Shown here: positions 14,941 to 26,392 of the stretch, piece by piece | Layout: each line of letters starts with the position of its first letter | Position numbering within the stretch: position 1 is the first letter of the stretch | Virus record (IMG/VR): IMGVR_UViG_3300032224_000988 | Span: 1-26,392 of that record | From: a virus | Length of the DNA: 26,392 nt | Strand: one strand, 5' to 3' | Notes under the pieces: generated by a model | Told to the model about the DNA's origin: nothing | Databases searched by the model: none | The model's input: the letters and a program-made list of their open reading frames with translations, nothing else | Position numbers and translations under genes: made by a program

Positions 14941-14948
14941 ATATTTCT

Positions 14949-15194
14949 ATGAGTAAAGAAAAATTGTTTGAATACTATCTACTTAAAAACCCTTCACTTG
15001 TCAATCAACTCATAGACGGGAAAGTTGTATTGTCAGCAAAGGGATTCAAGAAGTTCTTTGATACAACATACGATGTGGCGTATAAAGAAGGAATATACGA
15101 TGAATCGTATACAGACGAGCTTCCACCAAATAGAACAACGTCTCAAGACCCTGATGGTTTAAAAGACCTTTTAAATCTTTTCGGAATGCGTTGA
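14949..15194 (+). CDS. Small phage protein, paralogue of the gene at 25132
   Basis: 81 aa from the ATG at 14949; the promoter at 14913-14940 excludes a start 15 codons upstream. Features: a short helix, NPSLVNQLIDGKVVLSAKGF, KKFFDTTYDVAYKEG, a variable acidic linker, and DLLNLFGM at the end. The gene at 25132-25380 has the same order (NPSF, GMVTLSARGLRKLF, TWDFAYEAG, linker, GLMRRFGMK), so the two are homologous. Such N-P-S ... LSA.G..K.F..T.D.A...G proteins are, from memory, recurrent small phage proteins of unknown function. Its stop codon lies inside the -35 box of the helicase promoter. Confidence 0.75.
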   Translation: MSKEKLFEYYLLKNPSLVNQLIDGKVVLSAKGFKKFFDTTYDVAYKEGIYDESYTDELPPNRTTSQDPDGLKDLLNLFGMR

Positions 15195-19249: not shown

Positions 19250-19418
19250 AATGTATACCTACATTGCGCGAGGATGCCCTATAACGCGTTTTTATCTCCA
19301 TTACATATAAGTCATCTGTTATAGCATAACGACTCAAATTTGATGCATTAAGCAACAAACACGCACTTAACACACCACATAAGCAACATTAACCAGCATA
19401 ACGTATAACCAACCTTAC

Positions 19419-19495
19419 ATCCTCGTAGCTCAATTGGATAGAGTATCGTACTTCTAATTCGATGGTTGCTGGTTCGATCCCAGCCGAGGATGCCA
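19419..19495 (+). tRNA. tRNA-Arg (anticodon UCU)
   Basis: 77-nt cloverleaf. Acceptor ATCCTCG pairs with CGAGGAT, discriminator G, encoded CCA. D stem GCTC/GAGT; anticodon stem TCGTA/TTCGA with a U-U mismatch at the fourth pair (30-40); loop CTTCTAA gives anticodon TCT at 19453-19455. T arm GCTGG-TTCGATC-CCAGC is perfect. It reads AGA and AGG, codons frequent in this AT-rich arm and rare in GC-rich hosts. Seven bases separate it from the next start codon. Confidence 0.92.
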
Positions 19496-19502
19496 CCCCA
19501 CC

Positions 19503-19697
19503 ATGATTCACGAATTCAAAAACCCCATTCCAGTAGTCACCCCACTAGGAGAAGGATACGCCATATACACTCAATCAGGTGGAACCTTTGAGAACGATAT
19601 ATGGACTGTAGTAATCTGTGATGGAGGATCAATAAAACACTTTACTACCGAACAGGTAAGGGTTTACGCAAATGCAACATTCGATATAAGTAAGTAA
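19503..19697 (+). CDS. Conserved-type small phage protein, 64 aa
   Basis: 64 aa beginning MIHEFKNPIPVVTPLGEGYA, then a beta-rich GGTFENDIWTVVICDGG and HFTTEQVRVYANATFDI. From memory, M-H-FKNPIPV-TPLG-GYAIYV-DGGTFENDIWTVVL-DG is a very common short phage protein, likely a small beta-barrel; its role is unknown. It begins seven bases after the encoded CCA of tRNA-Arg, so the two must share a transcript. tRNA 3' processing would leave a nearly leaderless message. Confidence 0.75.
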   Translation: MIHEFKNPIPVVTPLGEGYAIYTQSGGTFENDIWTVVICDGGSIKHFTTEQVRVYANATFDISK

Positions 19698-19800
19698 TTT
19701 TTATATTTTTATTTTTATATTTTTATGTGGGGCTTTGTTTCACGCCCCCACGCTGGCGCGACTCCTCCCCACCCCGCCACCCCTGCCGCCCTCCGCTCTA

Positions 19801-19901
19801 CGCTGTGCCACCCCTACGCTGTGCCACCCCTACTCTCTACGCTGTGGCTGTGGCGCTCCGCTCTTATGTCATCCGTTCCGCTGTGCTGTTACTCCGCTGT
19901 G
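19801..19901. repeat. CGCTGTG repeat cluster
   Basis: CGCTGTG occurs at 19801, 19817, 19840, 19879 and 19895, the first two within a 16-bp tandem repeat containing CTGTGCCACCCCTACG. Further GCTGTG copies follow to 19919. The block is C/T-rich on the plus strand. Confidence 0.6.
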
Positions 19902-20062
19902 CTGTGCTGCTGTGCTGTGTCATTCCATCGGGCTGACCGCTTCACGTTGTATCACGTTGAATTGCAATAGTTTAATTCCATAACTTCTGATAAGATAGGT
20001 AGTAGATAATGGAATGAAGCCCTTTGTTGCAAGTAGCTTGCATTAAGAATGTGCGAGAATGG

Positions 20063-20194
20063 CGATGCAATCGTTTTGATTTAGTGTCCGCTGTGACGCT
20101 ATTGCCAAGAATTGAGCGCCGGATGACAGGCCACCGGATGCGATGCATTGCAAATGGTGAAGGCGAGATGTCCGATGCAATGCCAGGCGATGCA
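20063..20194 (+). repeat. CGATGCA motif cluster
   Basis: Four same-strand copies of CGATGCA at 20063, 20141, 20173 and 20188. They lie 85 to 216 bases upstream of the first sigma-54-type promoter, where activator sites or origin iterons would sit. Confidence 0.45.
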
Positions 20195-20278
20195 CGGGAA
20201 GATTGCCATACGCAATGTGGCAAGTATCGCTGTATAGCGATATAACGATTAATCCCTTTTCTCCTACTCTCTGAAAAC

Positions 20279-20295
20279 TTGGCACACTATTTGCT
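20279..20295 (+). promoter_or_regulatory. Sigma-54-type (-24/-12) promoter, site 1
   Basis: TTGGCACACTATTTGCT has GG and GC elements separated by ten bases, the RpoN spacing. It is preceded by CTGAAAAC, as is site 3. Confidence 0.6.
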
Positions 20296-20409
20296 GCGAT
20301 TCCGTGCAAGTCCTTTGCTTTGCATAGCTTGCAAATAATCCCTCTTTTCTGTTAGGTATTTACTGCCTAGTGCGGCAATTATTGCCTAGAAAAGCGGCAG
20401 CATTTTCCC

Positions 20410-20426
20410 TTGGCATAGAATCTGCT
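20410..20426 (+). promoter_or_regulatory. Sigma-54-type (-24/-12) promoter, site 2
   Basis: TTGGCATAGAATCTGCT keeps GG-N10-GC with TTGGCA and TGCT intact; it is the weakest of the three sites here because C is replaced by T after GGCA. Confidence 0.45.
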
Positions 20427-20470
20427 GCGCAATAATTCGCGTAAAGTATTGGAGAAAATACGCTGAAAAC

Positions 20471-20487
20471 TTGGCACGGCCTTTGCT
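20471..20487 (+). promoter_or_regulatory. Sigma-54-type (-24/-12) promoter, site 3
   Basis: TTGGCACGGCCTTTGCT matches the RpoN consensus TTGGCACG-N4-TTGCT closely. A start near 20498 would give a leader of about 58 bases to the gene at 20556. CTGAAAAC precedes it as at site 1. Confidence 0.7.
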
Positions 20488-20555
20488 GTGTCATATTCGC
20501 CGATTATGGCACATAAAAAATCAAATGAAACAAAAACTTAAACTCTATATATAAC

Positions 20556-20852
20556 ATGAAAACACACAACGAAAATTCCCGTGCCGCTATTCTTTCAAAG
20601 TATCGCGGCCCTACTAACTCAACTGGCTCTCGAATCATTGTATCTTCTCAAAGGAACCGCAAGTCCTTTCCATATCCTTATGAAAAATCCGGTTCAGATT
20701 GTCACACGTGGGCGGTTGAGCGGTATCTTAAAGCGATTCTTGAAGAGGACCGGAAAAGCTATGGCGAAAATGCGACTGGCTGGGGTGAACTGTCAAATTA
20801 TTCATTCGGTCAGCTAAAATCCGGTGAGTATGTCTTTGTCTCTAACATCTAA
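20556..20852 (+). CDS. Small plasmid/phage-type protein (GPTN-GSRI), 98 aa
   Basis: 98 aa. The N-terminal motif AAILSKYRGPTNSTGSRIIV and the ending SFGQLKSGEYVFV match, from memory, a short protein family (KY-GPTN--GSRI-A ... YP ... A--AL ... G-YVFV) spread among plasmids and phages, sometimes near replication or anti-restriction genes. Its function is not established. The middle holds a helix (HTWAVERYLKAILEEDRKSY). It is the first gene downstream of the three sigma-54-type sites, so it probably heads their operon. No Shine-Dalgarno; the leader is A/T/C-rich. Confidence 0.7.
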   Translation: MKTHNENSRAAILSKYRGPTNSTGSRIIVSSQRNRKSFPYPYEKSGSDCHTWAVERYLKAILEEDRKSYGENATGWGELSNYSFGQLKSGEYVFVSNI

Positions 20853-20864
20853 AAAACTAATCAA

Positions 20865-21212
20865 ATGAATAACACATTAATGGAAAAGCTAAACGAAATC
20901 AATCCCCGCTCCGCATGGAAAAAGGGAGTTAAAGAATACGCTCTCGAAATGGTAGAGTCTGCCGAAATTGAGTTGACACCGGAAAACGTGAAAAACGAAT
21001 TACTGAACGGTGCTAAGGATTGGCGAGAATATAGCTATGGAGGATGCTCAGCAATATATAACGCGGACATTGCGGAGAGACTTTGCACTCCCTCAGAGCT
21101 TAAAAAGAAAAAAGGCGGATATTTAGAGCCTAACACGCGGGAAACATGGTTAGATTGCCAAGCTCGCGCATTGTTTCAAGCCTATAGGCTCATCAATCGC
21201 CTTTTAAAATAA
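20865..21212 (+). CDS. Plasmid/phage-type protein, 115 aa
   Basis: 115 aa. The core NGAKDWREYSYGGCSAIYNA, DIAERLCTPSELKKKKGG, then EPNTRETWLDCQARALFQAY matches a family I recall from gut phages and plasmids (A-DW--YS-GGC-LIYD-DIA-RLC-P-E ... P---E-WL--QARAL-QA). It is of unknown function and mostly helical. It starts 12 bases after the previous stop, with an A-rich leader and no Shine-Dalgarno, and is followed by a hairpin and pyrimidine tract. With the 98-aa and 118-aa proteins it forms a set typical of accessory plasmid regions. Confidence 0.7.
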   Translation: MNNTLMEKLNEINPRSAWKKGVKEYALEMVESAEIELTPENVKNELLNGAKDWREYSYGGCSAIYNADIAERLCTPSELKKKKGGYLEPNTRETWLDCQARALFQAYRLINRLLK

Positions 21213-21220
21213 TCCAATAC

Positions 21221-21260
21221 GCGGGATGTTCAATCCGTCCCGCTTTTCTCTTCTCTTCTT
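21221..21260 (+). terminator. Likely intrinsic terminator
   Basis: GCGGGA (21221-21226) pairs with TCCCGC (21238-21243) and is followed by TTTTCTCTTCTCTTCTT. The pyrimidine tract runs straight into the next ATG at 21261, so it could also serve initiation of that gene. Confidence 0.55.
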
Positions 21261-21389
21261 ATGAAAAAACTCCGTTCACTATATTTTAAATATATCTTAG
21301 AAAACACGTCCTATGCATGGGAAGCATTCGCCAATGAATGCGCCCGCCGTGGGTTTGATCCAGAAACCTTAGCAGAATCTTTCCAATGA
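21261..21389 (+). CDS. Small protein, 42 aa
   Basis: 42 aa from the ATG at 21261: MKKLRSLYFKYILENTSYAW, then EAFANECARRGFDPETLAES. It has an amphipathic helix with basic N-terminus; no family recognised. It starts directly after a CT-rich tract instead of a Shine-Dalgarno. Its TGA overlaps the ATG of the next gene (ATGA), the first link of a three-gene coupled chain. The coupling and sensible composition support a real gene. Confidence 0.5.
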   Translation: MKKLRSLYFKYILENTSYAWEAFANECARRGFDPETLAESFQ

Positions 21390-21496
21390 GTAAATTATCC
21401 TCATCTCTCCAGTATAATCGCGCAAAATCCCGCTTCCTCGGTCTTTTGATCACACTCTCTACACTTGGCGCAATCCTGATATTTATTTTTCTATGA
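21386..21496 (+). CDS. Small single-pass membrane protein, 36 aa
   Basis: 36 aa: a polar, basic N-terminus MSKLSSSLQYNRAKSRF, then one membrane helix LGLLITLSTLGAILIFIFL, which suggests N-in topology. It overlaps by ATGA with the gene before and again with the gene after. No family is recognised. Size and topology resemble small phage regulators of membrane enzymes or holin partners, but nothing nearby supports either. Confidence 0.55.
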   Translation: MSKLSSSLQYNRAKSRFLGLLITLSTLGAILIFIFL

Positions 21497-21729
21497 ATAG
21501 GAAAATCGGCTCAAACGATATGCTTCCAAACAATACCCCCGCTCGTGTTGGGAATCGGAGGGGATTCGTTAAAAAATGCGATACGGTTCTTGCTTCCAAT
21601 GGGGGGTTTATTTCCCTTCACACTGTAGTTTTCAACGAAAAGGCGAAAACCCTCACTTGTGGCAAGAAAACATGGGAGAAAATCAATCCCGTTGAAAGTG
21701 AAGTGAACTATTCCTTCATTTTGTTTTAA
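21493..21729 (+). CDS. Small protein, 78 aa
   Basis: 78 aa; the ATG overlaps the membrane gene's stop (ATGA). MNRKIGSNDMLPNNTPARVG is followed by GFVKKCDTVLASNGGFISLH, a beta-rich middle, and a Trp-containing C-terminus (GKKTWEKINPVE). It looks like a small beta-type soluble protein; no family recognised. Two Cys (in KKCDT and LTCGKK) are not in a metal motif. It ends the coupled chain; 33 A-rich bases separate it from the next gene. Confidence 0.5.
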   Translation: MNRKIGSNDMLPNNTPARVGNRRGFVKKCDTVLASNGGFISLHTVVFNEKAKTLTCGKKTWEKINPVESEVNYSFILF

Positions 21730-21762
21730 TTACCAAATAAAAAAATCAAAATTAAATAACAC

Positions 21763-22083
21763 ATGACAAAACATGACGAGATACAGGCGTTAATGGAATT
21801 AGCGCATAAACTAGGTGGAAACTCATACTGCGGACCATGGCTCGAAAGTCAAATCCCGTTCATTGAACATGACATGAGATGCGACATCATGCCCACTGCT
21901 TCATGGAGTGAAACACGCCGATTGCATGATGGAATGCTTAACACCGCACGGGAGCAGGCAAACTACATCATAAAAGATGCAAATGAGAAGGGAGGAAAAA
22001 TCATAAGAGACGCTCAAAAGCACTCGGAAAACACACGCCGAACGCTGGCGAGGGATATCCAACGCGCTCTCGATGCCCTGTAG
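21763..22083 (+). CDS. Helical protein, 106 aa
   Basis: 106 aa. The N-terminal half has the motif LGGNSYCGPWLESQIPFIEH DMR, resembling a small plasmid/phage family with S-GPWL--- P-IE-D-RSD. The C-terminal half is a long helix with repeated Lys/Asp/Glu (ANEKGGKIIRDAQKHSENTR), similar to the II-DA---A segments of peptidoglycan- or DNA-associated coils. The leader is A-rich (ataacac before ATG) with no Shine-Dalgarno. Its stop lies one base before the fourth sigma-54-type site. Function unknown. Confidence 0.55.
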   Translation: MTKHDEIQALMELAHKLGGNSYCGPWLESQIPFIEHDMRCDIMPTASWSETRRLHDGMLNTAREQANYIIKDANEKGGKIIRDAQKHSENTRRTLARDIQRALDAL

Positions 22084-22100
22084 TTGGCACAGGAGATGCT
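22084..22100 (+). promoter_or_regulatory. Sigma-54-type (-24/-12) promoter, site 4
   Basis: TTGGCACAGGAGATGCT keeps TTGGCAC and TGCT with GG-N10-GC, matching the three sites at 20.3-20.5 kb. It lies 101 bases upstream of the ATG at 22202. Confidence 0.5.
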
Positions 22101-22102
22101 AT

Positions 22103-22155
22103 GCATTCCAACACCGCACATTCTACGGAGTGTGCGGCATGGAGTGAATGCTCCA
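22103..22155 (+). promoter_or_regulatory. Alternative hairpins in a 5' leader
   Basis: CCGCACA/TGTGCGG (22114-22120, 22131-22137) sits inside GCATTC/GAATGC (22103-22108, 22146-22151). The 3' arm GAATGC can instead be held in a GGAG-tgaatg-CTCC hairpin, so two structures exclude each other. No U-tract follows. Confidence 0.4.
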
Positions 22156-22201
22156 ATCGTCAAACAATAAACACACACTAAACACACAACAGAATAACAC
22201 T

Positions 22202-22558
22202 ATGCAAACACTAGAAAACATATACACATTTAACACTCGCAACTTTACCGTCAAAGTTGATGCAATGGAGGAAAATTACCCTGACCTTTCATGGGATGAA
22301 ACCGGAGAAGCGCAAATAATGATAGAAAGGGGGGATTGGCTTTGCTTTACGGTTAAAGCAACCCTTTCCTTTCGAGGGATGGAAATTGCGGAAGATTATC
22401 TTGGAAATTGTATCCATGAAAATACACGGGACTTCCGAGACCATTTTGGAATTGCGAAGCTGAAAAACACTAGTTCATATTTCTCGGATATGATTCGCAA
22501 TGTCATAAGAGACGGAAGAAATACACTGGCTCTTATCCCTAAAAACCTTAAAAATTAA
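22202..22558 (+). CDS. Plasmid/phage-type protein (DYLGNCIHE), 118 aa
   Basis: 118 aa from the ATG at 22202; a start 18 codons upstream would translate a CA-rich leader and is rejected. FTVKVDAMEENYPDLSWDET, then WLCFTVKATLSFRGMEIAED, YLGNCIHENTRDFRDHFGIA and YFSDMIRNVIRDGRNTL match, from memory, a family common on plasmids and phages (VRVD---D-DLS-DETGE ... G--V--DYLG-CIYE ... YFSDMVR-AI). Its function is unknown. The leader is CA-rich with no Shine-Dalgarno. The fourth sigma-54-type site precedes it. Confidence 0.7.
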   Translation: MQTLENIYTFNTRNFTVKVDAMEENYPDLSWDETGEAQIMIERGDWLCFTVKATLSFRGMEIAEDYLGNCIHENTRDFRDHFGIAKLKNTSSYFSDMIRNVIRDGRNTLALIPKNLKN

Positions 22559-22586
22559 CAACACGCAAAGCCAGGGGAGAAGTATT

Positions 22587-23126
22587 ATGAGAAAAGTAAC
22601 ATTCGACGGTGGCGTATTCGCTCCAAAATCATTCGCCTTGCACCGCATAACATCACACGCATGGAGCGGCAGATGTTCTGCATGGTATCTCGCAGATGGA
22701 ACACTTGAGGACGCTGAGTGGATTCGATGCGATGGACAGGTTAGAATTATACCTCGATTTAAATACTGGCAGGAGTCCATTACTACAGCCGACTGGTTCA
22801 GCCCCGAGCGGGAAAACATGGTCGTTCTCATTCTCAACACAAAACTTCGCGTCACAGCCCACGCCCTCGTAAGCGTCGGCACCATTAACGAAACTATATG
22901 CCACCCCCGCGAGGTATTCAGGCCAGCCATCGCGCTAAACGCGTATGCTATCTTTGTAATGCACAACCACCCGAGCGGAGATTCAACCCCAAGCGCAGCC
23001 GATTATAGAATCACCCAAAGGCTGAAAGACGGCGCTCACATACTCGGCATTACCCTAATTGATCACCTCGTCATCGGCGATTCAGCTATGTTTTCATTTG
23101 CCGACGCCGGAGTCATCCAAAATTAA
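22587..23126 (+). CDS. radC-like: RadC-like JAMM-domain protein
   Basis: 179 aa. The C-terminal domain (about 65-179) is a RadC-type JAB1/MPN metal domain: a Glu in PERENMVVLILNTK, LVSVGTINETICHPREVFRP, and the metal motif H126NHPSGDSTPSAAD139 (HxH-x10-D). The usual N-terminal helix-hairpin-helix is absent. Instead residues 1-64 carry a separate short module (SAWYLADGTLEDAEWIRCDG). RadC-like proteins are frequent on plasmids and phages; a DNA-repair role is not proven. One of few genes here with a Shine-Dalgarno (AGGGGAG, seven bases before ATG). It marks the end of the intermediate-composition block. Confidence 0.88.
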   Translation: MRKVTFDGGVFAPKSFALHRITSHAWSGRCSAWYLADGTLEDAEWIRCDGQVRIIPRFKYWQESITTADWFSPERENMVVLILNTKLRVTAHALVSVGTINETICHPREVFRPAIALNAYAIFVMHNHPSGDSTPSAADYRITQRLKDGAHILGITLIDHLVIGDSAMFSFADAGVIQN

Positions 23127-23173
23127 GCCGACTATTGACACAAACCAAAAAACCAACCAAACCAACGCACAAA

Positions 23174-23383
23174 ATGAAAACCAAAACATCCGCCCTCACA
23201 GCCCTGATCTCCGCAGAGTTCAACGCCGAACTCAACGCCGCAGGCCTCCGCGTCTGGGGCGACAACTGGGAAGCTCAGTTCACCGACCTTGGCCAAGACC
23301 ACGACACATTCACCGGCGACGTCCCCTCCCAAGTCCACGACCTCGCTGAATGGGACGATGCCAGCACCCGCGAAACTTTTTAG
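23174..23383 (+). CDS. Small acidic protein, 69 aa
   Basis: 69 aa from the ATG at 23174; an in-frame TTG 13 codons upstream would translate the AC-rich leader and is rejected. MKTKTSALTALISAEFNAEL, then NAAGLRVWGDNWEAQFTDLG and an acidic tail. No family recognised. The leader contains ACCAACCAAACCAA eight bases before the ATG; the same 14-mer precedes the next gene. Codons here are clearly GC-rich, marking the shift in composition. Confidence 0.55.
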   Translation: MKTKTSALTALISAEFNAELNAAGLRVWGDNWEAQFTDLGQDHDTFTGDVPSQVHDLAEWDDASTRETF

Positions 23384-23406
23384 ACACCAACCAAACCAAA
23401 CCAAAA

Positions 23407-23649
23407 ATGACACCCGAGCAACTCAACCGCGCCGCCTTCGAAATGGAGGCGGCGCTTGCCCGTCTCGACATTGAGCCCGGCATCACCACGGCAGCCGAGC
23501 TGGCCGCCGACGACGCCGAAATTATGCCCGCCCTGGTGGATGGCCAGCCGGTAATTACCCCCGAGCCTAATTCTGGCATGTCTGAAGGGCGCAAAATTTT
23601 TTTGAGCCGTCGGGCCATGGGAGGTGAAAGTTTTCAGTTTTCAGGTTGA
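23407..23649 (+). CDS. Small protein, 80 aa, C-terminus in repeat DNA
   Basis: 80 aa from the ATG at 23407: MTPEQLNRAAFEMEAALARL, Ala/Asp-rich middle, then GQPVITPEPNSGMSEGRKIF. The last residues (ESFQFSG) and the stop lie in a ttttcagttttcaggttgaa stretch that looks like dispersed intergenic repeat DNA, so the native C-terminus may have been lost. The leader repeats the 14-mer ACCAACCAAACCAA, seven bases before the ATG. No family recognised; mostly helical and acidic. Confidence 0.5.
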   Translation: MTPEQLNRAAFEMEAALARLDIEPGITTAAELAADDAEIMPALVDGQPVITPEPNSGMSEGRKIFLSRRAMGGESFQFSG

Positions 23650-23742
23650 AGTTTGAGTGAAATCCTTACGATAAGGATTTTCAGCAAGCCCTCCGCGTTC
23701 TCCGCGCCTCCGCGTGAGTTTTTTGGGGCGTTGACTGCTGCC
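23630..23742. repeat. Host-type dispersed repeat with palindrome
   Basis: Holds ttttcagttttcagg, a perfect palindrome AAATCCTTA-cga-TAAGGATTT (23660-23680), and ccctccgcgttctccgcgcc followed by tccgcgtgag. The last part resembles the reverse complement of the tail of the 112-bp repeats (acacagagaacacggagg), a chromosomal repeat style. The palindrome may also act as a terminator, though only a short T run follows. Confidence 0.5.
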
Positions 23743-23752
23743 GTGTGGGGGT

Positions 23753-23995
23753 ATGAGCACGGACTGGCTGGAAATTTATAGGGACTACTCGGGGGAGGAG
23801 TTGGAGGCGGAGATTGCTCGCATGAAGCAGGAAGCGACGGTGTATCTCTCGCAGAACATCGCGGACAAGAGCTACCAGAAATCCCTGGACGAGGTGCGCA
23901 ACCGGCTCCATGCGGCGATCCGTGTGCGCAATGAGCGGCGGAATCGGGATGTGCCGAACTGGGGGGTGCCGGACTTCTCGGCTGGGATTCATTGA
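23753..23995 (+). CDS. Small conserved-type phage protein, 80 aa
   Basis: 80 aa: MSTDWLEIYRDYSGEELEAE, IARMKQEATVYLSQNIADKS, YQKSLDEVRNRLHAAIRVRN, ending VPDFSAGIH. The pattern L-IY--Y--EEL--EI--L--------Q-I--KSY---L-E---RL-AA--V-NER ... DFS recurs in small phage proteins, often beside head genes, so a minor assembly role is possible. It has a G-rich stretch (gtggggg) just before the ATG. Here it lies next to repeat DNA without a recognisable head gene. Confidence 0.7.
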   Translation: MSTDWLEIYRDYSGEELEAEIARMKQEATVYLSQNIADKSYQKSLDEVRNRLHAAIRVRNERRNRDVPNWGVPDFSAGIH

Positions 23996-24012
23996 CAGGA
24001 TTTCGGGTGGGT

Positions 24013-24264
24013 ATGGAAAAACAACTGGAAGGTGAGGACAAGGTGCGGATGCTGGAGCGCGAGATGCGGCAGCCGTCTGGCGGCGGGGCGTGTCCGAAGT
24101 GTGGGAATATTAACCACAACCGAGCGCCGGGGCAGGCGGGAGGTAGAGCAACCGCAGGTTGGCCCCGTAGGGGCGAGACTCGCGGGAGCGAGCGAGTCAA
24201 AGGACACAGAGAACACGGAGGGGATCAAGGCGAGGGTAAGGAGACGGCAGAGGCCGTGGAGTAA
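24013..24264 (+). pseudogene. Possible zinc-ribbon gene cut by the 112-bp repeat
   Basis: From the ATG at 24013 the frame encodes MEKQLEGEDKVRMLEREMRQ, then PSGGGACPKCGNI: a helix and the first half of a zinc ribbon (CPKCG). The second Cys pair never appears, because the 112-bp repeat begins at 24110 and the rest of the frame translates repeat DNA. I infer that the repeat replaced the 3' part of a small zinc-ribbon gene. The frame stays open by chance to 24264, overlapping nothing until the dNMP kinase start. It is likely non-functional or altered. Confidence 0.5.
24110..24221. repeat. 112-bp direct repeat, copy 1
   Basis: Aligns without gaps to 26227-26338 (offset 2117) with about eight mismatches, mostly in the last third. 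It starts TTAACCACAACCGAGCGCCG, contains the hairpin GCCCC-gta-GGGGC and ends in the GAACACGGAGG type of chromosomal repeat. Confidence 0.9.
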
Positions 24265-24265
24265 T

Positions 24266-24781
24266 ATGGCTGACCGTCTGTGTGTGTGTGGAGTGGCTGG
24301 CGCTGGCAAGTCGGCTTTGGCGCGGGTGCTGGCGAGGGACTATGGGTATGAGGTGGTGAAGTTTGCGGATCCCCTCAAGGAGATGTTGCGTGTGCTGGGC
24401 TTGGGGGATCGGGAGCTGGAGGGCGACCGGAAGGAAGTGCCGAGCGATCTGCTCTGTGGGCGCACCCCGCGCTGGGCGATGCAACGCCTGGGCACGGAGT
24501 GGGGCCGCGACATGATCGGCGGGTCGCTGTGGGTGCAGGCTTGGCAGCGCAGGGTGAAGGCGGTGCGGACGAGCCGGATCGTGGTGGATGATTGCCGTTT
24601 CCCGAATGAGTTGGCTGCTGCGAGGGAGATGGGCTTTGTGCCGGTGCGGCTATACCGCGAGGAGCGCACGCATTGGGGTGAGCGGCATGTCTCGGAATAC
24701 GCGCTGGATGAGGTGTGGATGCCAGAGTTCCGCAACGATGGGGCGTTGGAGGCGTTGGCGCTCAACATACTGGGGCTATGA
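24266..24781 (+). CDS. Deoxynucleoside monophosphate kinase
   Basis: 171 aa from the ATG at 24266; the longer open frame upstream crosses the repeat and is not credible. P-loop G9VAGAGKS16, then VVKFADPLKEMLRVLGLG, RTPRWAMQRLGTEWGRDMIG and IVVDDCRFPNELAAAREMGF. These match phage T4 gp1-like/dNMP kinase proteins that phosphorylate dNMPs to dNDPs with ATP. It heads a six-gene coupled operon; its TGA overlaps the next ATG. Together with MazG and dCMP deaminase it indicates reshaping of nucleotide pools. GC-rich codons, unlike those two enzymes. Short Shine-Dalgarno GGAG four bases from ATG. Confidence 0.85.
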   Translation: MADRLCVCGVAGAGKSALARVLARDYGYEVVKFADPLKEMLRVLGLGDRELEGDRKEVPSDLLCGRTPRWAMQRLGTEWGRDMIGGSLWVQAWQRRVKAVRTSRIVVDDCRFPNELAAAREMGFVPVRLYREERTHWGERHVSEYALDEVWMPEFRNDGALEALALNILGL

Positions 24782-24966
24782 AAATCGATTTTGAAGTGCG
24801 CTTGGTGCTGTGTGCAAATGGGGTGGCGGTGGGGCCGCGCTTGCACAGGGACAAGCCATTCCCCCGCTATGAGTTGAGCTACCCCGATACGCCGGAGGGG
24901 CGTGAGAATGCCGAGGCCGACTTGGAGCGGATCAAGAAATATGTGGAATCCTATGACCAAAAATAA
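24778..24966 (+). CDS. Small protein, 62 aa
   Basis: 62 aa from the ATG that overlaps the dNMP kinase stop (ATGA). MKIDFEVRLVLCANGVAVGP is a beta-strand pair, followed by RYELSYPDTPEGRENAEADL and a C-terminal helix ERIKKYVESYDQK. It looks like a small alpha/beta protein. I do not know its function. The next gene overlaps its last 14 bases in another frame. Confidence 0.65.
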   Translation: MKIDFEVRLVLCANGVAVGPRLHRDKPFPRYELSYPDTPEGRENAEADLERIKKYVESYDQK

Positions 24967-25135
24967 ACCATCCGTCGATTCGCGATTGCTGTTTTTTAAC
25001 GGATTGCGCGAGAAGTTTGGCAGGCCGCTGCTGCCAGTGCCGCCACCTATCGCGGACGACACGGAGGCCGTCCCTCCACGGCAGATGGGGTTGGCTGAGT
25101 ATATCGCCGTGAAGCGGCGTGGGGAGGCGCGATGA
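24953..25135 (+). CDS. Small protein, 60 aa, with embedded palindromic repeat
   Basis: 60 aa from the ATG at 24953: MTKNKPSVDSRLLFFNGLRE, KFGRPLLPVPPP, then ADDTEAVPP and QMGLAEYIAVKRRGEAR. The DDTEAVPP segment is encoded by a 24-bp GC-rich element (25054-25077) nearly identical to one in the next gene, so it is probably an in-frame insertion into a Pro-rich linker. The flanks look like a normal short helical phage protein; no family recognised. ATGA coupling to the next gene. Confidence 0.6.
   Translation: MTKNKPSVDSRLLFFNGLREKFGRPLLPVPPPIADDTEAVPPRQMGLAEYIAVKRRGEAR
25054..25077. repeat. REP-like GC-rich element, copy 1
   Basis: 24 bp differing by one base from 25293-25316; it contains the palindromic arms GGACGrC and GCCGTCC. 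In frame, it encodes DDTEAVPP. Confidence 0.75.
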
Positions 25136-25380
25136 CTCGGGACGAGTTGTGGCGCAAGTTTGCGGAGCGGAACCCCTCCTTCGATGGCGACGGCATGGTA
25201 ACGCTCTCTGCGCGGGGGCTGCGCAAGCTCTTCCGACAGACCTGGGATTTTGCTTATGAGGCGGGGGCTTCGGACGGCACGGAGGGCAACGCGGACGGCA
25301 CGGAGGCCGTCCCTCCAAGTAGCGTTGGAGATGACAGCATGGTTGAGGGGTTGATGCGAAGGTTTGGAATGAAAAAATGA
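25132..25380 (+). CDS. Small phage protein, paralogue of the gene at 14949
   Basis: 82 aa, ATGA-coupled to both neighbours. MTRDELWRKFAERNPSFDGD, GMVTLSARGLRKLFRQTWDF and AYEAGASDG are followed by a linker and GLMRRFGMKK. The order of motifs equals that of the 81-aa protein at 14949-15194, so they are homologues, now in GC-rich rather than AT-rich DNA. The linker carries a partial and a complete copy of the REP-like element (encoding DGTEGNADGTEAVPP), exactly where the homologue has an unrelated acidic linker. Function unknown; a phage-type family. Confidence 0.75.
   Translation: MTRDELWRKFAERNPSFDGDGMVTLSARGLRKLFRQTWDFAYEAGASDGTEGNADGTEAVPPSSVGDDSMVEGLMRRFGMKK
25272..25316. repeat. REP-like GC-rich element, copies 2 and 3
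   Basis: GGACGGCACGGAGG occurs at 25272-25285 and 25293-25306. The second is complete, forming the palindrome GGACGGC-acggag-GCCGTCC followed by CTCC. Both are in frame inside the 82-aa gene. Confidence 0.8.
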
Positions 25381-25682
25381 AAATCGAAGACGAAATCACG
25401 GAACTCTCCGAGCGGTGGTATGAACTCATCGGTGATGAGCACCATAAGGATCGGGACTGCCACTGGTATATCGAGACGCGGTGGAGCTATGGGTTGCCGC
25501 AGGTGTATGTGGTCGTGCATGAGGGATATACCTTTGAGCGGATCGAGGAGGAATTTCATACCTACGCCGAGGCTCTGGAGGGGTTGAAGGGATACTTGGA
25601 GCGAGCCATCTCCGAGGAAAACGCCGAGCGCGAGGATTCGGATGACCGCGAGGATGACAGCGAAGACGAAGAAGATTTATGA
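25377..25682 (+). CDS. Small acidic phage-type protein, 101 aa
   Basis: 101 aa; ATG overlaps the previous stop (ATGA). MKIEDEITELSERWYELIGD, then EHHKDRDCHWYIETRWSYGL, VYVVVHEGYTFERIEEEF, helix ALEGLKGYLERAI and a very acidic tail (EREDSDDREDDSEDEEDL). From memory, DHHKDRDCHW-I---W-YG----Y-V-H-GYI is a recurrent phage family; the HHKDRDCHW cluster could bind metal. Its acidic tail could mimic DNA. Function unknown. Coupled to the exonuclease after it. Confidence 0.7.
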   Translation: MKIEDEITELSERWYELIGDEHHKDRDCHWYIETRWSYGLPQVYVVVHEGYTFERIEEEFHTYAEALEGLKGYLERAISEENAEREDSDDREDDSEDEEDL

Positions 25683-26224
25683 AAACAAAAATGGTGGTAG
25701 TGGATACGGAAACGGGGGGCTTGCGGGCGGATCGCCATGCGTTGCTCTCGATAGCGGCGGTCGATGCGCAAAGTGGTGAGGCGTTTCACGCTTTGATACG
25801 CCCTTCGGCGGATTGGATCGTGGAGGCGGGAGCCTTGCAGGTCAATGGATTGACTCTGGATTTCCTGCGCGATGCGGGTCGCGCCGAGTCGGTGGTGATG
25901 ACTGATTTCCAGCTCTGGATGGATGCTCGGCGTGGGGCGATGGTGGCTGGCTGTAATGTGGCCTTCGACCTCGGGTTCTTGGACGCTGCGGCGAAGCGGT
26001 GCGGTCTGAAATGGCAGGCTGGCCGTTCGCTGGATCTGCGCGGAGCGGCGTGGCTCGCCTATGAGACGAAGGGGCTGGAACTTGCGCTCGGCAAGGATGG
26101 CAACCCCAAGCTCTCGCTCGACAGCATCGCAGCGGCGCTCGGCTTGAGCCGCGCCAGCGAGAAACATGATGCGCTGGAGGATGCCTTGCTCACGCTGGCG
26201 TGTTTCCGCGAGTTGCTGGGGTGA
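25679..26224 (+). CDS. dnaQ-like: DnaQ-like 3'-5' exonuclease (DEDDh)
   Basis: 181 aa. The exonuclease motifs are present: Exo I D9TE11 (VVVDTETGG), Exo II NVAFD97LGFLD, Exo III H163DALED168, which is the DEDDh type. Length equals a single catalytic domain, as in DNA polymerase III epsilon or RNase T-like proteins. It degrades DNA (or RNA) from the 3' end, for proofreading, repair or end processing; no polymerase is in the window. The ATG overlaps the previous stop (ATGA), so it is the last of the six-gene operon. The second 112-bp repeat begins two bases after its stop. Confidence 0.88.
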   Translation: MKTKMVVVDTETGGLRADRHALLSIAAVDAQSGEAFHALIRPSADWIVEAGALQVNGLTLDFLRDAGRAESVVMTDFQLWMDARRGAMVAGCNVAFDLGFLDAAAKRCGLKWQAGRSLDLRGAAWLAYETKGLELALGKDGNPKLSLDSIAAALGLSRASEKHDALEDALLTLACFRELLG

Positions 26225-26226
26225 AT

Positions 26227-26338
26227 TTAACCACAACCGAGCGCCGTGGCAGGCGGGAGGTAGAGCAACCGCAGGTTGGCCCCGTAGGGGCGAGACGAGC
26301 GGGAGCGAGCGAGTCAAAGAACACGGAGGACACGGAGG
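26227..26338. repeat. 112-bp direct repeat, copy 2
   Basis: Same orientation as copy 1 at 24110-24221, and about 93% identical by hand alignment. It begins just after the exonuclease stop. A frame at 26200-26388 across it is an artefact; the final 54 bases of the window show no other feature. Confidence 0.9.
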
Positions 26339-26392
26339 AAGACTTGGAGGAATTGGGATTGCGGCGGCGCTTGGTTTCGCGCTGGTGATTTC

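Follow-up and report, generated by a model that had tools for sequence, protein, structure and literature searches.

A sigma-54 promoter stays silent unless an activator ATPase acts on it, and the locus described here raises the question of why a phage would carry several such elements in a row and what they might control. The window, by which we mean the whole stretch of DNA analyzed, comes from IMG/VR and is a contig 26,392 bases long. A preliminary description had marked four copies of TTGGCAY-N6-TGCT in it, all on the plus strand, and had read them as RpoN promoters that switch early accessory genes according to host signals or, alternatively, as a repeat bound by a protein of the phage itself. 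On one side of the array is a tRNA-Arg gene (19419-19495), the only match to Rfam in a search for small RNAs, and on the other a block of small genes. Its features are listed below; handles such as G005 or L217 denote related phage contigs.

20279..20295, plus strand: site 1, predicted -24/-12 element TTGGCACACTATTTGCT; predicted start ~20306; aligned sites in G005, G003, G011 and G006
20355..20367, no strand: palindrome 1, GGTATTTACTGCC, degenerate GGCAA-N3-TTGCC, candidate enhancer; in relatives the copies at this place are perfect or nearly so
20374..20386, no strand: palindrome 2, GGCAATTATTGCC, perfect GGCAA-N3-TTGCC, candidate enhancer
20396..20408, no strand: palindrome 3, GGCAGCATTTTCC, degenerate, adjoining site 2, candidate enhancer
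20410..20426, plus strand: site 2, TTGGCATAGAATCTGCT; predicted start ~20437; absent (lost) in G006
20471..20487, plus strand: site 3, TTGGCACGGCCTTTGCT; top sigma-54 score of the window; predicted start ~20498
20556..20852, plus strand: first gene of the accessory operon, 98 aa, phrog_3199, function unknown
20865..21212, plus strand: operon gene, 115 aa, no family match
21493..21729, plus strand: operon gene, 78 aa, no family match
21763..22083, plus strand: operon gene, 106 aa, kept in relatives at 67-80% identity
22084..22100, plus strand: site 4, TTGGCACAGGAGATGCT, putative internal promoter; predicted start ~22111; counterpart TTGGCACACTTCATGCTatgcattcca in L217
22202..22558, plus strand: gene behind site 4, kept in relatives

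The region upstream of site 1 (19980-20250) holds further elements that are conserved in several relatives, namely ATAACTTCYGATAA, TTGCAAGTAGCTTGCA and the hairpin-like TATCGCTGTATAGCGATA.

Resemblance of the four sites to sigma-54 promoters

The four sites, at 20279, 20410, 20471 and 22084, match the motif exactly and are its only matches in the window, as compared with 0.09 expected in the shuffled window, where four were never reached in 100 shuffles. The distance between GG and GC is exactly ten bases in all four, as had been claimed, and the -24 GG and -12 GC of sigma-54 promoters are found both in these and in all 28 of the listed phage sites.

Scoring against known promoters gives a similar picture. 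On a 16-bp core matrix built from 29 ChIP-supported sigma-54 sites of Salmonella (PMC3844500, Table 3), sites 1 to 4 score 19.9, 17.1, 20.5 and 14.8, respectively. The Salmonella sites themselves score 15.1-21.2 on this matrix, so that sites 1-3 fall inside the known range and site 4, the weakest of the four, just under it. Among all 16-mers of the window, site 3 ranks first, site 1 second, site 2 third and site 4 fifth. The comparison with shuffled sequence proposed in the preliminary description came out in favor of the sites: a score of at least 14.8 is reached by five 16-mers of the window, whereas a shuffled window has 0.47, and in none of 300 shuffles did three of them fall within 200 bp on the same strand. 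The one 16-mer outside the array that reaches 14.8, at 999 on the minus strand, is located inside a collagen-like coding repeat. On an 18-bp matrix sites 1 and 2 score 10.4 and 7.6, both under the known range, because G or C follows their TGCT. The stretch CTGAAAAC upstream of sites 1 and 3 is indeed common to both, but it recurs exactly in only one relative; it therefore looks incidental and was ruled out as a conserved element.

Phage lineage and likely host

The DnaB helicase of the window is 88-96% identical to those on other contigs, including three of ~68 kb (G003, G005 and G006), which indicates that the window is a fragment of an uncultivated ~68 kb phage lineage. The family is little known: megablast of the window against 50,697 phage records returned nothing similar, and the portal protein of G005 has no match among the same records. 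The right end of the window (22780-26392) has ~60% GC, compared to 35-45% before it, is missing from the relatives, and includes a phage ORF fused to a Verrucomicrobiota-type RadC domain; it is either a mosaic or an assembly chimera. The small protein encoded before the helicase (14946-15191) has a 33%-identical homolog within this right end (25132-25377, E 1e-14), and the two parts of the window may thus come from related phages.

The host is probably a member of the Verrucomicrobiota. The RadC domain of the GC-rich end has its best relatives in this phylum, Akkermansia phages are among the matches listed for the helicase, and one of the 388 Verrucomicrobiota genomes searched has a distant terminase-portal-helicase set on a contig of 489 kb, the Verrucomicrobiota being the only phylum covered by that search. 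A scan of genomes for the right-end repeat, intended to find the host, gave no match. RpoN is encoded in all 15 genomes tested from this inferred host phylum.

The sigma-54 motif of this phylum resembles that of the phage closely. In 60 genomes of the Akkermansia family, TTGGCAYR-N5-TGCT occurs 273 times versus 50 for the reversed pattern, and the form ending in TGCA 94 times versus 36; the host preference for TGCT over TGCA is matched by the phage sites, which show T without exception. Copies of the host motif are located upstream of rpoN, P-II, glutamine synthetases and glutamate synthase, the domains of which were checked, and site 1 of G003, TTGGCACGCTTCTTGCT, is letter-identical to the site preceding the type III glutamine synthetase in members of the Akkermansia family. 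A cross-phylum analysis gives the consensus as TGGCAC-N5-7-TTGCT and reports autoregulation of rpoN in Verrucomicrobiia (PMC12316311). In one Akkermansia-family genome (L160:1488-1840), glutamine synthetase and glutamate synthase genes are divergent with a sigma-54 site each, and between them lie palindromes of the TTTACA-N4-TGTAAA type, which are possible sites of a nitrogen activator of Verrucomicrobiota.

Conservation of the array among relatives

The related genomes, to which the preliminary description had pointed as a check, carry an array of two or three sites at the same place. The spacing in G005 is that of the window itself (131 and 61 bases), and among distant relatives L193 has three sites and L217 two, together with the counterpart of site 4; a distant relative in G218 shows no array in the 80 kb examined. 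In alignments the sites form conserved islands in variable sequence, and the spacers drift. In G006, site 2 has been lost and a second copy gained beside site 1, which suggests that single sites turn over while the array persists. Across 28 sites from ten phages (the window, G001, G003-G006, G011, L193, L211 and L217), TGGCA, GC and the T following GC are invariant, several of these positions having belonged to the search patterns themselves. An A in place of this T was permitted in the scans and is seen in none of the phage sites. One weaker site in G004, CTGGAATGATTCTTGCT, was excluded from the final count. The two positions following TGGCA are C or T and then G or A, in near host proportions and as in known sites. 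A further match to the motif, which precedes a 355-aa gene (G005:53324 and orthologs), is not counted as a site, since its letters encode the conserved LGMEDAE-stop of the preceding frame.

Position 20 is G in 24 of the 28 phage sites versus 25 of 82 host sites. This is not explained by host sigma-54 preference, and it could stem from a shared ancestry of the sites or from a constraint peculiar to the phages. Such a phage-specific G, the clustering of multiple copies and the partly palindromic core GCA-N7-TGC would all be in keeping with operators for a DNA-binding protein of the phage, either a repressor or the activator of an ordinary promoter, in which case the likeness to sigma-54 promoters would be a resemblance only. 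We consider this unlikely, given that GG and GC are invariant, that GG on its left side and T on its right make the motif asymmetric, that the first T and the T of TGC vary where sigma-54 tolerates change, that the motif is that of host nitrogen promoters, and that no sigma-70-type promoter above chance is found nearby (19400-22700). The alternative of the preliminary description, a repeat bound by a phage protein, thus fits the -24/-12 elements less well than sigma-54 does, yet it is possible for the separate GGCAA-N3-TTGCC palindromes. Its RpoN reading is well supported by the conservation in ten phages, by the column preferences of sigma-54 and by the occurrence of the same motif ahead of rpoN and nitrogen genes in the phylum of the likely host; its further proposal, that the genes are early and are switched by nitrogen, stress or envelope signals, is a conjecture.

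The operon behind the array

The distance from site 3 to the start codon is mostly 33-68 nt, similar to that of host promoters; in the window the leader measures ~58 nt from the predicted start to the ATG at 20556. The first genes themselves differ: phrog_3199 in the window, a member of the GP88 family (PF17338) in G005, to which that of G003 is similar, a different protein in G006 and L217, and yet others in G011 and G004. The first operon gene of the window, used as query against viral contigs, found no relatives. By its sequence, the locus is a fixed promoter array ahead of exchangeable genes. A conserved array of the sigma-54 type before small genes that change rapidly suggests that these genes are probably turned on only upon a host signal; that they are early is our assumption.

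Three tandem sites would seem to exceed the obvious need of one operon, and the array could be imagined as a decoy that titrates host sigma-54 instead of as working promoters. This is very improbable, as each site faces genes from the distance expected of a promoter, and site 4 stands alone as an internal site.

The upstream palindromes

Three tandem GGCAA-N3-TTGCC palindromes lie between sites 1 and 2 and are common to seven phages. With a match threshold of at least 7 of 10 letters, eight phages (G006 included) yield 28 matches, where shuffled sequence gave 5.5 on average and at most 14. Relative to site 2 the palindromes are positioned at ~-55, -35 and -13, with a period of ~20 bp, near two helical turns. 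Measured from the predicted start of site 3, their centers fall at ~-137, -118 and -96, within the classical enhancer distance, the usual range being 70-150 bp (PMC3844500). Most relatives have the tandem palindromes correctly placed upstream; G004 lacks them. By their sequence and position, they are a candidate enhancer for site 3.

A search of 388 Verrucomicrobiota genomes found no exact tandem pair of these palindromes, and the sequence upstream of 59 host sites has none either, hence their binder may be a phage protein. The same two results would suit another arrangement, in which the sites are sigma-54 promoters, a phage repressor or some other regulator uses the palindromes as its operators, and a host activator acts from elsewhere or from solution; palindrome 3 adjoins site 2 and could block it. 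We regard this as a possibility to be taken seriously, although the less probable one, since the position and period of the palindromes suit an enhancer for site 3 and G006 has kept them despite the loss of site 2.

A proposed mechanism

We thus favor, with good but not full confidence, the reading of the sites as -24/-12 promoters for the host sigma-54 polymerase which, with a candidate enhancer, gate an accessory operon. Small accessory genes in a hypervariable operon would be transcribed from the tandem sites 1-3, and the distal part of this operon from site 4. The host polymerase would wait at these promoters as a closed complex, to be opened by an ATP-hydrolyzing enhancer-binding protein, probably one of the host, whose probable binding sites are the three tandem palindromes. 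Neither Sigma54_DBD (PF04552) nor Sigma54_activat (PF00158) has a Pfam match in the window, G001 or the three ~68 kb relatives. The steps that we infer are transcription, what the palindromes do, which protein is the activator, the signal and the host, nitrogen limitation being the leading guess for the signal. We would give even chances to the more specific proposal that the exchangeable operon is gated through host sigma-54 and a three-operator enhancer of the phage's own, the binder of which is phage-encoded or an unrecognized host factor, and that it runs only in a particular host state.

Comparison with known systems

Bacterial sigma-54 promoters (PMC3844500, PMC12316311) share with the phage sites the GG and GC elements ten bases apart, the TTGGCAYR-N5-TGCT motif, the intergenic location and palindromes upstream at ~-70 to -150, which in the phages are candidate activator sites, whereas the phage sites are distinguished by standing two or three in tandem ahead of an exchangeable operon and by the G at position 20. 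The nitrogen and rpoN promoters of Verrucomicrobiota share the 17-mer consensus, including the preference for TGCT, and one identical 17-mer; however, they are single sites without GGCAA-N3-TTGCC palindromes, and the glutamine synthetase and glutamate synthase region of Akkermansia has palindromes of the TTTACA-N4-TGTAAA type instead. In the open-access literature, to which the search was confined, no description of sigma-54 promoter arrays in phages was found. The closest precedent that turned up comes from cyanophages, which use host NtcA sites (PMC3037559); there phage genes are likewise under a host nitrogen-response regulator with many sites per genome, yet NtcA activates sigma-70-type promoters in the classical manner and is not a sigma factor requiring an ATPase, and the phage is a myovirus of cyanobacteria. 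In Salmonella, the Gifsy-1 prophage is tied to RpoN-dependent transcription of the RtcR/RpoN RNA-repair operon (PMC9879122), but there prophage genes influence a host sigma-54 operon, while here the phage carries the promoters itself.

The motif followed by a tail of RTGTCA has 16 matches in IMG/VR and none when reversed (L202-L217). It was set aside as evidence, because several matches outside this phage family lie inside long reading frames or far from genes; some of the matches outside the family may be further phage sigma-54 promoters.

Since sigma-54 promoters are silent without their activator, a phage that uses them would tie part of its program to host physiology with little leak. The array would allow a test of how Verrucomicrobiota phages sense the nitrogen or stress state of their host, and a conserved promoter before changing genes would be a place to seek new phage accessory functions.
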